Shown: piece by piece, positions 21,716 to 26,813 of the stretch
Numbering within the stretch: the stretch's first letter is position 1
Layout of the letters: each line of letters starts with the position of its first letter
Assembly (NCBI RefSeq): GCF_000381005.1
Contig: NZ_KB908388.1
Coordinates: 1-64,000, forward strand
Direction: 5' to 3'
Source of the DNA: Selenomonas bovis DSM 23594
Lineage (GTDB): Bacteria > Bacillota > Negativicutes > Selenomonadales > Selenomonadaceae
Length of the DNA: 64,000 bases
Made by a program: the position numbers and the translations under genes
The notes under the pieces: generated by a model
Database searches by the model: none
Seen by the model: only the letters and a program-made list of their open reading frames with translations
Told to the model about the DNA's origin: nothing

Positions 21716-23239
21716 ATGGCTGCGAAAAATCTTTTCGGCGTCATCTACATGTCGACCGCCAAACTCGAGATGCTCATCGTGAGCCTAAAACCGCTGCACG
21801 TCGTGGAGCACATGGCTTCGGCAAAGTTCGTGCAGCGCATGGACAAGTCAAAAATCTACCAAAACGAGCTGGGGAAGATCATCTTCTCCCTCCAGGGGTT
21901 TCAGCAGGTGCTCAAAGACTACGGCGTGAAACGCTACCACTTCTGGGCCAGTCAGCAGCTCATCGACGATGTCACGGCGCGCTATCTCGCCGAGCAAATC
22001 GAGGTGCGCACAGGACTCGCGGTGACCTGGCTGAGCACGAGCCAGATCAACTTTCTGCGCGCGACGGCGCTCATGGGCGGCACGAAGCTCTTCCACAAGA
22101 TTGCGGAGCGTTCGACGTATCTGCTCTCCATCGGTTCGGTCGCCGCGACGCTCTCGCATTTCGACCACGGCCAATTCGTCCACGCCTGGAACATCGGTCT
22201 AGGGTATCTCGAAATCGACCAACTGACGAATGACCTCCGCCATGCCGCGACCGATGTCAGCGGCATCATCAGCGACTACATCAGCTCGAAGCTGCAGGCG
22301 CTGCGCCACCGCCTGGAGGCAGAAGGGCGGGAGGCGAACCTGATTCTCCAGGATTTCTCCCATTTCAACGATATGCTGCTGCAGCCTGGCGAGGACATCG
22401 CGCCGATGACGCAGCAGCAGTTCCAGGCCATCGAGCAGGACAACCTGCACGCGTCGCAGGAGTATCTGCGCCACCATTTCAAAATGGATGAGACAGCGGC
22501 CTCGCGCGTGATTCCCTCTCTGCTGATAATCCGCCAGATCATCTCCATGACGCATGCGGGCCACCTCTATCTGACGCGCCTCAACATCCTGAACGGTCTC
22601 GCGCTGCACCAGGCGGCGAAGGACGGTTTCCTCAAGACAGACTTCGACGGCATCATCCGCACGGTGGCGGAGAACCGTGCGCGGCGCTATCAGTCGGACG
22701 ACGCGCACCGCGCCATCACATTGAAACTCGCGCTACACCTCTACGACCAGCTCAGGAAGCTGCACCGCCTCGGGCAACGTGAGCGCCTGCTGCTCGAAAT
22801 CGGCGTGCGGCTCGAAGATCTGGGGAATTTCATCCAGGCGCACGGGCACTACCGCCACTCCGCCTACATCATCGAGGCGAATCCCGTCATCGGCCTCTCA
22901 GACGATGAGAACGAAATCATCGCGGAGATTGCGCGCTATCACAGCGCTGAAGCGCCCGAGGTCCGCCAGCACCATTACAGCCACCTCGGCGCAGATATCC
23001 AGATGACAGTCGCCAAGCTCGTCGCCATCGTGCGACTGGCCGACGCGATGGACGACTCCCGCCAGCAGAAAATCAAGAGCATCAGCGTCTCCGTCCGCGA
23101 GGACGCTGTCACCATCACGGCCCACTCTATGGAGAACCTCGCGCTCGAGGAATGGGCCTTCCAGCGCAAGGCAAAGCTGTTCCGCGAGGTCTACGGCATC
23201 CCCGCCGTGCTCAAGCAGAGGAGGAGTCTCAAGAAATGA
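21716..23239 (+). CDS. Ppx/GppA-family protein with degenerate active site and C-terminal HD-like domain
   Basis: The 507 residues follow the layout of Ppx/GppA phosphatases: an actin-like N-terminal half (about 1-300) and an HD-like helical C-terminal half (about 310-507, with RYHSAEAPE and VRLADAMDDS). By-eye alignment with the canonical ppx at 25689 shows the nucleotide/phosphate loops lost: DLGSNS is YMSTAK here, GEREA is TSQIN, DTGGAST is SIGSVAA. In the HD half, the expected His-Asp pair appears as Glu-Asp (VRLEDLGNF), while HYRHSAYII is kept. It is probably not an exopolyphosphatase; a binding or regulatory role is inferred. AAGGA precedes the ATG, and the stop overlaps the ppk1 start (ATGA). 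Confidence 0.8.
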   Translation: MAAKNLFGVIYMSTAKLEMLIVSLKPLHVVEHMASAKFVQRMDKSKIYQNELGKIIFSLQGFQQVLKDYGVKRYHFWASQQLIDDVTARYLAEQIEVRTGLAVTWLSTSQINFLRATALMGGTKLFHKIAERSTYLLSIGSVAATLSHFDHGQFVHAWNIGLGYLEIDQLTNDLRHAATDVSGIISDYISSKLQALRHRLEAEGREANLILQDFSHFNDMLLQPGEDIAPMTQQQFQAIEQDNLHASQEYLRHHFKMDETAASRVIPSLLIIRQIISMTHAGHLYLTRLNILNGLALHQAAKDGFLKTDFDGIIRTVAENRARRYQSDDAHRAITLKLALHLYDQLRKLHRLGQRERLLLEIGVRLEDLGNFIQAHGHYRHSAYIIEANPVIGLSDDENEIIAEIARYHSAEAPEVRQHHYSHLGADIQMTVAKLVAIVRLADAMDDSRQQKIKSISVSVREDAVTITAHSMENLALEEWAFQRKAKLFREVYGIPAVLKQRRSLKK

Positions 23240-25392
23240 GCGAGATAAAGAAAAAATACACGAAGCCCGAATATTATACGAACCGCGAGCTGAGCTGGCT
23301 GGATTTCAACGCCCGCGTGCTCGAAGAGGCCCGGAATACCGGCAACCCGCTGCTCGAGCGCCTGAACTTCCTCGGCATCACGCAGAGCAACGTCGACGAG
23401 TTCTTCATGGTGCGCGTCGCCTCGCTCTACAAGCTCGCCGCCGGCGGCGTGCAGTCCGTGGACAGCTCGGGCATGACGGCTGCGGCGCAGATCCGCGCCA
23501 TCTCGAAGTGCGAGCATGAGGCCGTGGCCGAGCGCTACAACATTTACAACAAATCCCTGCTGCCAGAACTAGAACGCGAGGGCATCCACATCCGCCGCAT
23601 CAAGGAACTGACAGACCGGCAGTACGACGTCCTCCGCCGCTTCTACGACGACGAGATCTATCCCGTACTCACACCGATGGCGGATGATTCCTCGCGTCCC
23701 TTCCCCTTCCTGAAAAACGACTCGCTGAACATCGCGGTACAGCTCGTCGATGACACCACGCAGGACAAGAAATTCGCGACCGTGCGCGTGCCGGATGTCT
23801 TCCCCCGCTTCATCCCGCTCACGGAGGAGGAAAATGCCTTCATCCTCGCGGAGGACGTCATCCGCGAGTTCCTCCACACGCTGTTCCACGGCTTCACGAT
23901 TGAGAGTGCCTCTGCCTACCGCGTGACGCGCGATATGGATCTCGACGTGGCGGATCAGGACGCGCCCGACCTCCTGCGCGCCGTGCAGACGCAGCTGCGC
24001 GCCCGCGAGCATGGCTCCGTCATGCGCCTCGAGGTCGAGGCGGGCATGGAGCCAGAGCTCTGCGATCACCTCATCGAACGGCTCGGCGTCGACGAGAACG
24101 CCATCTACCACATCCACGGCCCGATCGACCTGACCTTCCTCAAGAAGCTGCCGGGGACCATCGATGGCCATGACGCGCTGCGCTACCAGCCGTTCGAGAG
24201 CTACAAGCATCCCGACCTCACGATGGACGGCAACATCTTCGAGCACATCCGCGCGCAGGACTACCTCATGCAGCACCCCTACGACTCGTTCAGCTCCGTC
24301 GTGAACTTCATCCACCAGGCAGCCACCGACCCGGACGTCCTCGCGATTAAAATGACGCTCTACCGCGTCTCCTCCGGCTCCCCCATTATCAAGTATCTCG
24401 GGCAGGCCGCGCAGGCCGGCAAGCAGGTCACAGTCCTCGTCGAGGTCAAGGCGCGCTTCGACGAGCAGAACAACGTGCGCTGGTCGCGCCAGCTCGAGAA
24501 GATGGGCTGTCATGTCATCTACGGCCTCGTCGGCCTCAAGACGCACTCCAAGATCGCGCTCGTCATCCGCCGCGACGAGGACGGCATCCGCCGCTACCTG
24601 CATCTCGGTACGGGCAACTACAACGATGTCACCGCGCATTTCTACACGGACATGGGGCTTTTCACCTCGGACCGCGACCTCGGCGTCGACGCCTCGAACC
24701 TCTTCAATATGCTCTCCGGCTACTCGCGGCCGCCGTATTTCCACAAGCTCCACATCTCGCCGCGCTACATCCGCAAGTTCATCTACGAAAAGGTCGACGC
24801 GGAGATCGAAGCCGCCAAAGCGGGTCGGCCAGCCCTCATCAAGATGAAGATGAACTCTCTCTCCGACCCGGATGTCATCGCCAAGCTCTACGAGGCCTCG
24901 GCCGCGGGCGTCAAGATCCAGCTCATCGTGCGCGGCATCTGCTGCCTGCGCACGGGCATCCCGGGCGTCAGCGACAATATCGAGGTGCATTCCATCGTCG
25001 GGCGGTTTCTCGAGCACAGCCGCATCTACTATTTCTATCATGACGGCAACGAGGACGTCTACCTCGCGTCCGCCGACATGATGACGCGCAACCTCGACCG
25101 CCGCGTCGAGCTCCTGTTCCCCGTGGAGCAGGAGGATCTGCATCAGCGCACCATGCGGATCTTCGAGATCATGTGGGCGGACAACGTACAGGCGCGCCTG
25201 CTCGTCTGCGACCGCTTCACGCACATCAACCGCCGCAACCAGGAGCCGCTGAGCAGTCAGGACCGCTTCATCGACCAGGCCGCCCGGCAGATTGAAAAGC
25301 AGAAAGCCGCCCGCCGCGAGGCCAAGGAAACCCCGGGCGTCTTCACGCCCATGCAGCGCCACGAAGAAACCATCGAATCCCCCAGCCGCTGA
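23236..25392 (+). CDS. ppk1: Polyphosphate kinase Ppk1
   Basis: Reversibly polymerises the gamma-phosphate of ATP into inorganic polyphosphate. The 718 residues show the four-domain plan: an N-terminal helical domain opening with NRELSWLDFNARVLEEA, a head domain, and two phospholipase-D-like catalytic domains. The autophosphorylated His lies in KTHSKIALV (about His 437), and the second catalytic His in FLEHSRIYYF (about His 594). LHLGTGNYND is the ATP-site signature. The ATG overlaps the stop of the preceding gene, so synthesis of the two proteins is coupled. A Ser/Pro-rich tail ends the protein. Confidence 0.97.
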   Translation: MSEIKKKYTKPEYYTNRELSWLDFNARVLEEARNTGNPLLERLNFLGITQSNVDEFFMVRVASLYKLAAGGVQSVDSSGMTAAAQIRAISKCEHEAVAERYNIYNKSLLPELEREGIHIRRIKELTDRQYDVLRRFYDDEIYPVLTPMADDSSRPFPFLKNDSLNIAVQLVDDTTQDKKFATVRVPDVFPRFIPLTEEENAFILAEDVIREFLHTLFHGFTIESASAYRVTRDMDLDVADQDAPDLLRAVQTQLRAREHGSVMRLEVEAGMEPELCDHLIERLGVDENAIYHIHGPIDLTFLKKLPGTIDGHDALRYQPFESYKHPDLTMDGNIFEHIRAQDYLMQHPYDSFSSVVNFIHQAATDPDVLAIKMTLYRVSSGSPIIKYLGQAAQAGKQVTVLVEVKARFDEQNNVRWSRQLEKMGCHVIYGLVGLKTHSKIALVIRRDEDGIRRYLHLGTGNYNDVTAHFYTDMGLFTSDRDLGVDASNLFNMLSGYSRPPYFHKLHISPRYIRKFIYEKVDAEIEAAKAGRPALIKMKMNSLSDPDVIAKLYEASAAGVKIQLIVRGICCLRTGIPGVSDNIEVHSIVGRFLEHSRIYYFYHDGNEDVYLASADMMTRNLDRRVELLFPVEQEDLHQRTMRIFEIMWADNVQARLLVCDRFTHINRRNQEPLSSQDRFIDQAARQIEKQKAARREAKETPGVFTPMQRHEETIESPSR

Positions 25393-25446
25393 GCCGCCCG
25401 GCGCACAGACGCAGCCACCAGGACGGACGAGCGGCAATACCATAGG

Positions 25447-25555
25447 AAACTCAACGCACAAACGTCCACTTTGTGGACATTGTGCGCCCGCCCTTGCAGT
25501 AAATCCAGCCAATCGCGCTGCGCCTGCGGCTTGCGTTCTTGGGGATTTACATAGT
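25447..25555 (+). repeat. Family B repeat, first tandem copy
   Basis: AAACTCAACGCACAAAC opens the unit, followed by the hairpin GTCCAC-TTT-GTGGAC. Farther on, GTAAATCC and GGATTTAC form an outer inverted repeat around a GC-rich core. It is followed at once by a second copy with a period of 109 bp. It does not code: other copies carry frame-breaking indels. Confidence 0.85.
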
Positions 25556-25664
25556 AAACTCAACGCACAAACGTCCACTTTGTGGACATTGTGCGCCCGT
25601 CCTTGCAGTAAATCCAGCCAATCACGCTGCGCCTGCGGCTTGCGTTCTTGGGGATTTAATAGTA
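25556..25664 (+). repeat. Family B repeat, second tandem copy
   Basis: Nearly identical to the unit at 25447-25555; it ends 10 bp before the ppx ribosome-binding site. The pair fills most of the ppk1-ppx gap. Confidence 0.85.
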
Positions 25665-25688
25665 AAAATCAGTAAGGAGGTCATCAAC

Positions 25689-26813
25689 ATGGAAAATTTT
25701 GTCGTCATCGATCTCGGCTCGAACTCCATCCGCCTGCGCATCACGCAGATCACCGAGGGGAATTTTCTGCGCGTCACGCACCAGCTCAAGGAATACGTCC
25801 GCCTGTCGGAGAACATGGGCCCGGAGCGCATCCTCCAGAAAGTACCCATGGACCGCACGCTCGAGGCCCTGAAAAAATTCAAGGGCATCATCGACGGCCT
25901 GCCGAACACCCATGTCGTCGCCATCGGCACGGCCGCGACGCGTCAGGCCAAGAACCAGAAGGAATTCCTCAAGCGCGTCAAAAACGAGACAGGGCTCAGC
26001 CTGGAGGTCATCTCCGGCGAGCGGGAGGCCTACCTCGACTACCTTGGCGCCGCCCACACCCTGCCGCTGCACAACTGCCTCCTCATGGATACCGGCGGCG
26101 CGAGCACCGAGCTCATCCTCGTGCAGGACGGCAAGCCCGTGAACCTCACGAGCCTGCCGTTCGGCTCCGTCACGATCTCTCAGCGCTTCCACCTCGAGGA
26201 CCGCATCACAGCGGCCAGCCTGTTCCAGGCGATGACCGTCGTCGAAAAGGCCCTCTCCAACCTCGACTGGCTCCTGAGCGCCCACAAAATCCCGCTCGTC
26301 TGCCTCGGCGGCTCGAACCGCACCCTCGCGAAGATCGCGCGCAACCGCTGGCACACTGATGCGGGCGACGTCCCCGACATCCACGGCTTCACACTGCCGG
26401 CCGATGACGCGACGGACATCATGACCGACCTCATCTCCCGTGACCGCGCGGGGCGCGAAGACATCTCCGGCCTCACGAGCGACCGCTCCGACGTCATCGT
26501 CGGCGGTCTGACGCCGCTCGTGCTCATCCTGCGCATCTGCCACATCGGTGAGATCGTCTTCTCGAACCACGGCCTGCGCGAAGGCTGCCTCTTCGAATAT
26601 CTCGCCAAGCGCCAGGCAGAGCACAAGGCCGCGCCGCCGGCCTTCCACATCCCCGCGCCGCCCCAGGCGACCATCGTCACCATCGATGACATCGCGAGCG
26701 GCCGCATCGCCCCGCCCCCCGGCACCAACGCATCAGAAATCACGCCGAGCAAGCACAGCAAGAAAAAGGCGAAGAAGAACAAGAAAAAGAGCGGCGGCGG
26801 CAAAAAGAAATAA
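25689..26813 (+). CDS. ppx: Exopolyphosphatase / pppGpp phosphohydrolase (Ppx/GppA), canonical
   Basis: Removes terminal phosphates from polyphosphate or converts pppGpp to ppGpp. The 374 residues have intact actin-fold motifs: VIDLGSNSIRL at the start, GTAATRQAKN near 80, SGEREAYLDYLG near 112 with the catalytic Glu, and DTGGASTEL near 138. Only the N-terminal phosphatase half is present (about 300 residues), followed by a Pro/Ala linker and a strongly basic tail of Lys, Ser and Gly, possibly for binding polyphosphate or RNA. AAGGAGG lies 8 nt before the ATG. It lies downstream of ppk1 behind two family B repeats. Confidence 0.94.
   Translation: MENFVVIDLGSNSIRLRITQITEGNFLRVTHQLKEYVRLSENMGPERILQKVPMDRTLEALKKFKGIIDGLPNTHVVAIGTAATRQAKNQKEFLKRVKNETGLSLEVISGEREAYLDYLGAAHTLPLHNCLLMDTGGASTELILVQDGKPVNLTSLPFGSVTISQRFHLEDRITAASLFQAMTVVEKALSNLDWLLSAHKIPLVCLGGSNRTLAKIARNRWHTDAGDVPDIHGFTLPADDATDIMTDLISRDRAGREDISGLTSDRSDVIVGGLTPLVLILRICHIGEIVFSNHGLREGCLFEYLAKRQAEHKAAPPAFHIPAPPQATIVTIDDIASGRIAPPPGTNASEITPSKHSKKKAKKNKKKSGGGKKK

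Follow-up and report, generated by a model that had tools for sequence, protein, structure and literature searches.

The window, by which we mean the whole stretch of 64,000 nucleotides from Selenomonas bovis DSM 23594 that was analysed, contains an exopolyphosphatase-like gene that is directly followed by the gene of polyphosphate kinase 1 and further downstream by a second exopolyphosphatase gene (Table 1). We use the label PpxD for the protein encoded upstream of ppk1 and for its relatives. Open reading frame, coordinates, frame and the ATGA overlap with ppk1 are as the earlier note described them, with the TGA stop codon of ppxD at 23237–23239 and the ATG of ppk1 at 23236–23238. A Shine-Dalgarno-like GAAAGGA is located 5′ of the ppxD ATG at 21716, and the sequence GAGGAGG within the end of ppxD, some 10 nt upstream of the start codon of ppk1, suggests that ppk1 has its own ribosome site in addition to a possible translational coupling. 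Promoter and Rfam scans found nothing. The ppx2 gene starts 296 bases after ppk1 and has all catalytic motifs intact.

Table 1. Features of the ppxD–ppk1–ppx2 region (positions in the window; residue numbers of PpxD unless stated otherwise).
Feature	Position	Strand	Basis or remark
ppxD (Ppx1 of the lactic-acid-bacterial type), putative pseudo-exopolyphosphatase, 507 aa	21716..23239	+	
Former phosphate loop 1, DLGSNS to YMSTAK, residues 11–16	21746..21763	+	alignment
Former catalytic Arg (E. coli R93), now Ile83	21962..21964	+	alignment; residue role from PMC3411833
Former catalytic-Glu loop (E. coli E121), GEREA to TSQIN, residues 108–112	22037..22051	+	alignment
Former metal/phosphate loop 2 (E. 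coli D143...E150), now SIGSVAAT, residues 138–145	22127..22150	+	alignment
Former HD pair of domain III, now Glu367-Asp368	22814..22819	+	alignment
C-terminal domain IV, residues 449–507	23060..23236	+	relative conservation raised in the PpxD clade
Clade signature L-E-x-W-x-F, here LEEWAF, residues 477–482	23144..23161	+	W480 in 98/103 PpxD
ATGA stop–start overlap of ppxD and ppk1	23236..23239	+	
ppk1, polyphosphate kinase 1, 718 aa	23236..25392	+	NCBIfam TIGR03705, 893 bits
ppx2, canonical two-domain exopolyphosphatase, 374 aa, Lys-rich tail	25689..26813	+	PF02541, 193 bits

The gap between ppk1 and ppx2 holds two head-to-tail copies of a 109-bp element (25441–25658) which are 97% identical. 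The element has 63 matches in the genome, often in tandem, and is a dispersed repeat family. The Lys-rich tail of Ppx2 reads SKKKAKKNKKKSGGGKKK (26742–26810), and such tails are also present on the ppx2 copies of the two nearest Selenomonas.

Judged by homology, the window PpxD is a genuine member of the Ppx/GppA superfamily by descent. The family profile matches the Ppx/GppA chains of the PDB with a best E of 1e-44 and covers most of the length of these solved structures, in line with the two-lobe layout proposed before; the four-domain layout is common to PpxD and to E. coli Ppx (PDB 1U6Z) and GppA. Pfam recognizes domain III only (PF21447, E 1.2e-17, 64.7 bits), and the profile of the catalytic lobes, PF02541, does not match the window PpxD at E≤1, whereas the canonical ppx gets 193 bits. 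A structure prediction from three sequences only had a mean pLDDT of 37, and no structural claim is drawn from it.

In an alignment of the window PpxD with E. coli Ppx that was built by way of many relatives, none of the residues D17, R93, E121, D143 and E150 (E. coli numbering) is left, nor is the His of the HD pair. The part that these Arg/Glu and Asp/Glu residues play in catalysis is known from Ppx enzymes (PMC3411833); R93, E121, D143 and E150 correspond to Ile, Ile, Ser and Thr. The replacements read earlier from the sequence were right, namely YMSTAK for DLGSNS, TSQIN for GEREA, SIGSVAA for DTGGAST (residues 138–144) and Glu-Asp for the HD pair; the loss of the catalytic Arg has to be added to that list. 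Compared with E. coli Ppx and GppA every catalytic and metal residue is thus gone, and the protein has neither the DxGSNS and DxGGGS loops, R93/E121 and D143/E150 of an active Ppx/GppA phosphatase nor the HD pair of an HD-domain metal phosphohydrolase. Another relative of Ppx/GppA, Rv1026 (PPX2) of Mycobacterium tuberculosis, has also been reported to be without exopolyphosphatase activity (PMC3411833). Rv1026 differs from the window PpxD in that its catalytic residues are present and that it is active as an ATPase; it is no case of motif loss.

We took a census of these residues in 103 PpxD proteins, 13 of the type found in Lactobacillus and Selenomonas and 90 others. In the 13 proteins D17, G19, R93, E121, D143, E150 and the HD His are gone without exception. 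Among the 90 others R93 is kept in 87, E121 in 88 and D143 in 84 (80 of all 103 proteins retain the three together), the HD pair is mostly retained, D17 is mostly His where it is readable and E150 is mostly Gly (77/90). A single distant member, from Acetoanaerobium, has all five catalytic residues. The PpxD clade thus grades from near-intact to empty proteins. The inactivity claimed in the earlier note fits the total loss in the window's type, for which alone it appears a safe inference from the residues; it is not to be extended to the whole clade, as Acetoanaerobium and most other relatives keep catalytic residues. One could argue that PpxD is still a hydrolase that uses a rebuilt active site or domain III, since fold and length are kept and since the other members are so much less eroded. 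However, lobe site and HD pair are both missing from all 13 proteins of the window's type, and because of the missing HD pair we set the role of a nucleotide or HD hydrolase low and regard the altered enzyme as very improbable.

Despite the loss of the active site ppxD is under purifying selection. For the window, one Selenomonas bovis MAG and another Selenomonas MAG, dN/dS is 0.084–0.094 for ppxD, 0.088–0.101 for ppk1 and 0.146–0.214 for the active ppx2, and thus the dead ppxD is constrained as tightly as ppk1 and more tightly than ppx2. We also considered whether ppxD is a decaying gene that is kept only by its translational coupling to ppk1, as the ATGA overlap and the loss of all catalytic residues might suggest. 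This reading is ruled out by the dN/dS of about 0.09 over 507 codons, and the frame is intact in all relatives of the Lactobacillus/Selenomonas type; we give it practically no credence.

The conservation that was lost from the cleft, relative to the canonical paralogues, has its counterpart in a gain at the C-terminus. Domain IV holds 9 of the top-10% conserved columns in PpxD and none in the canonical paralogues, a gain that ranks 10 of 483 circular shifts. The signature LExWxF is absent from the canonical paralogues, from the Ppx of Bacillales and from E. coli Ppx. As it is also present in the PpxD of Acetoanaerobium, it is no consequence of the erosion. These data bear on the possibility that PpxD is a regulator which binds a ligand such as (p)ppGpp, ATP or Pi in the eroded cleft, does not cleave it and reports to Ppk1. 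Several Ppx enzymes are inhibited by (p)ppGpp (PMC3411833), and the joint retention of R93, E121 and D143 in most PpxD is what a binding site might require, but in the window's type all cleft residues are replaced and the cleft is no longer conserved as in the canonical proteins, so that we consider such a sensor quite unlikely.

The link to ppk1 was followed by genome-wide protein searches in 60 relatives; the taxonomy of the genomes in our coded set was taken from their group codes. Twenty-two relatives have a full-length PpxD homologue together with ppk1, in each case directly upstream of ppk1 and on the same strand, and one further homologue is located at a contig end. Two lineages of ppk1 can be distinguished: ppxD is present in 22 of 25 genomes with the high-scoring lineage A and in none of 15 with lineage B (Fisher p 2e-8, uncorrected for relatedness). 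Lineage B, which has ppk1 without ppxD, includes five congeners of the window, and in the seven loci of this lineage that were inspected a short canonical-type ppx precedes ppk1.

The same gene order, proposed as a check in the earlier note, is found in other Negativicutes: of 79 additional loci that were selected by their ppk1, 69 have ppxD upstream. Genome-wide profile searches, in 249 genomes from the phylum and in 38 from one order, detected the ppxD–ppk1 pair in other classes of Bacillota. Wherever ppxD and an intact flank were found by genome-wide searches, ppxD stands directly before ppk1, and this constant placement argues that the pairing is not due to chance. The gap between the two genes is mostly −11 to +32 bases; at three loci the start of ppk1 is unsettled, and for this reason the called frame begins farther upstream. 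Within the same tree there are also Ppk1 proteins without an adjoining PpxD (family f6 and loci L078, L108/109, L169, L182 and L190), and thus the help of PpxD is not universally required. At L182 (G431:C13) a canonical-type full-length Ppx occupies the ppxD slot, on the same strand and directly before ppk1. Elsewhere in the Negativicutes, canonical ppx is either transcribed divergently or missing from the neighbourhood. A Ppx directly upstream of ppk1 and on the same strand is also known from Bacillales (Cluster I type; L083, L084 and Mesobacillus foraminis); in contrast to PpxD, it groups with canonical Ppx, keeps the catalytic motifs and is without LExWxF.

No PpxD relative was found on viral contigs, and a single scan of genome contigs returned two near copies only. 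A search for Ppk1 residues that co-vary with the presence of PpxD gave nothing above the null. A link of Gly450 of Ppk1 to PpxD, a lead from a small sample, was dropped: in the enlarged set of Ppk1 sequences only 4 of the 7 nested losses show a change of this residue, a count that is equalled or exceeded by more than a third of random draws.

In a tree that includes the pre-ppk1 Ppx of Bacillales, PpxD and the Ppx1 of Lactobacillus form one side of a branch with support of 100, with canonical Ppx on the other. The window's type groups with Ppx1 of L. intestinalis and L. amylolyticus (support 100) and is set apart from the PpxD of other Negativicutes, even of other genera of its own family. A tree in which the Negativicutes are constrained to group with each other is rejected for ppxD (p-AU 6e-16) as well as for ppk1 (p-AU 5e-7); the window ppx2 also falls with Lactobacillus Ppx2, though less firmly (support 99 in one tree and 81 in another). 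With L. intestinalis the window shares 36.8% identity in ppx1 and 64.9% in ppk1, and with the vertical version in the same family 24–28% in ppxD and 47–50% in ppk1. The gene order ppx1–ppk1–ppx2 is common to the window (21716–26813), L. amylolyticus and L. intestinalis; in the latter (L114 9712-12513) ppk1 and ppx2 are separated by two DUF2252 genes. Trees, AU tests and gene order together indicate that the window holds the ppx1–ppk1–ppx2 cluster of lactic acid bacteria, which on this evidence is horizontally shared between Lactobacillaceae and part of the Selenomonadaceae. In GC and GC3 the three genes resemble their neighbours, and hence the transfer does not look recent. Outside the Selenomonas group the nearest relatives of the window protein are thus Lactobacillus Ppx1 proteins and not those of other Negativicutes. 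Elsewhere in the window's genome (L003, G000:C18:26959-27816) a short canonical Ppx is encoded beside pstB and a pstA-like gene and has no adjoining ppk1. In the tree it falls with the Ppx encoded before ppk1 of the other lineage in congeners, and it may be the vertical ppx that stayed in place when ppk1 was replaced.

The genetics of lactic acid bacteria give a hint at the function. According to the review by the Lactobacillus authors (PMC12248826; results of Corrales et al. 2024, doi 10.1128/aem.02290-23), Lc. paracasei BL23 has no polyP once ppx1 is deleted in frame, a copy in trans restores it, and the catalytic residues of that Ppx1 are replaced. Cluster II Ppx1, from Lactobacillaceae, Clostridia and Negativicutes, was suggested there as a possible activator of Ppk1, the mechanism being unknown (PMC12248826). 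The idea of a Ppk1 helper is not new, as the Lactobacillus authors proposed it in 2024–2025 and named the Negativicutes. In our comparison L. intestinalis and L. amylolyticus stand in for the Lc. paracasei protein. The two Ppx1 proteins are about 35–37% identical to the window PpxD, fall into the same clade (support 100), share the gene order and are likewise eroded in both phosphate loops, the catalytic Arg/Glu and the HD His. A difference is that the window PpxD belongs to a rumen Negativicute, whereas the function of Cluster II Ppx1 has been tested only in Lc. paracasei.

Given the grouping with Lactobacillus Ppx1 the same role is the best explanation, and as these nearest outside relatives are needed for building polyP, PpxD is most likely a helper of the polyP maker and not a degrader. 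We consider it likely that PpxD is a non-catalytic helper of the co-translated Ppk1 which is needed for, or raises, net polyP synthesis and which most likely binds Ppk1. PpxD would bind Ppk1 or the Ppk1–polyP complex, probably with its domain III/IV half as contact surface and presumably through domain IV. The ASKHA lobes would be an inherited shell that appears unable to cleave polyP or pppGpp, and Ppx2 would be the actual polyP degrader of the operon. The Lc. paracasei phenotype would also be explained if PpxD bound polyP ends or Ppx2 and guarded polyP from Ppx2, leaving Ppk1 untouched: Ppx2 is co-encoded in most Selenomonas and in both Lactobacillus operons, and for E. coli Ppx it has been postulated that polyP binds in the canyon of domains III/IV (PMC12248826). 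However, the position of the clade is tied to ppk1 and not to ppx2, and the phosphate loops of the window PpxD are gone, which makes such shielding rather unlikely to us. The broader claim of the earlier note, a conserved and catalytically empty Ppx fold tied to Ppk1, agrees with the dN/dS of 0.08–0.09, the tracking of a ppk1 lineage and the Lc. paracasei genetics (PMC12248826).

Genome G134 (L073 5905-6174) has an ORF of 89 residues in the ppxD slot upstream of ppk1. An in-frame internal deletion, with a short AAAATT repeat at the junction, has left it with only the first ∼20 and the last ∼70 residues of ppxD; the complete ppxD occurs in two genomes from its family and is 63% identical over the retained part. 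For the genomes compared, pN/pS of the retained part is 0.28 and that of ppk1 is 0.26. As one nearly invariant Gly is changed and as the ORF is known from a single genome, it may be a remnant in decay. The idea that the Ppk1-assisting activity resides in domain IV with LExWxF, that neither the two ASKHA lobes nor the HD domain is needed for it and that the ORF of G134 is a minimal natural Ppk1 activator is tentative, and we would rather doubt it. Stand-alone proteins that consist only of the Ppx domain III/IV part are encoded at L066 3572-4147 and L081 3794-4606, the former adjoining the canonical ppx of a ppxD–ppk1 locus.

The graded erosion, the shift of conservation to domain IV with its LExWxF signature and the two-ended remnant of G134 are added here to what was proposed for Lactobacillus. 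That work raised the question of how a dead exopolyphosphatase makes polyP synthesis possible, and domain IV, W480/F482 and the natural remnant of 89 residues supply a handle by which this question can be tested. The ppxD–ppk1 pairing is spread across the Bacillota, and the helper travels with its own lineage of ppk1, as would be expected if the two proteins are matched to each other.
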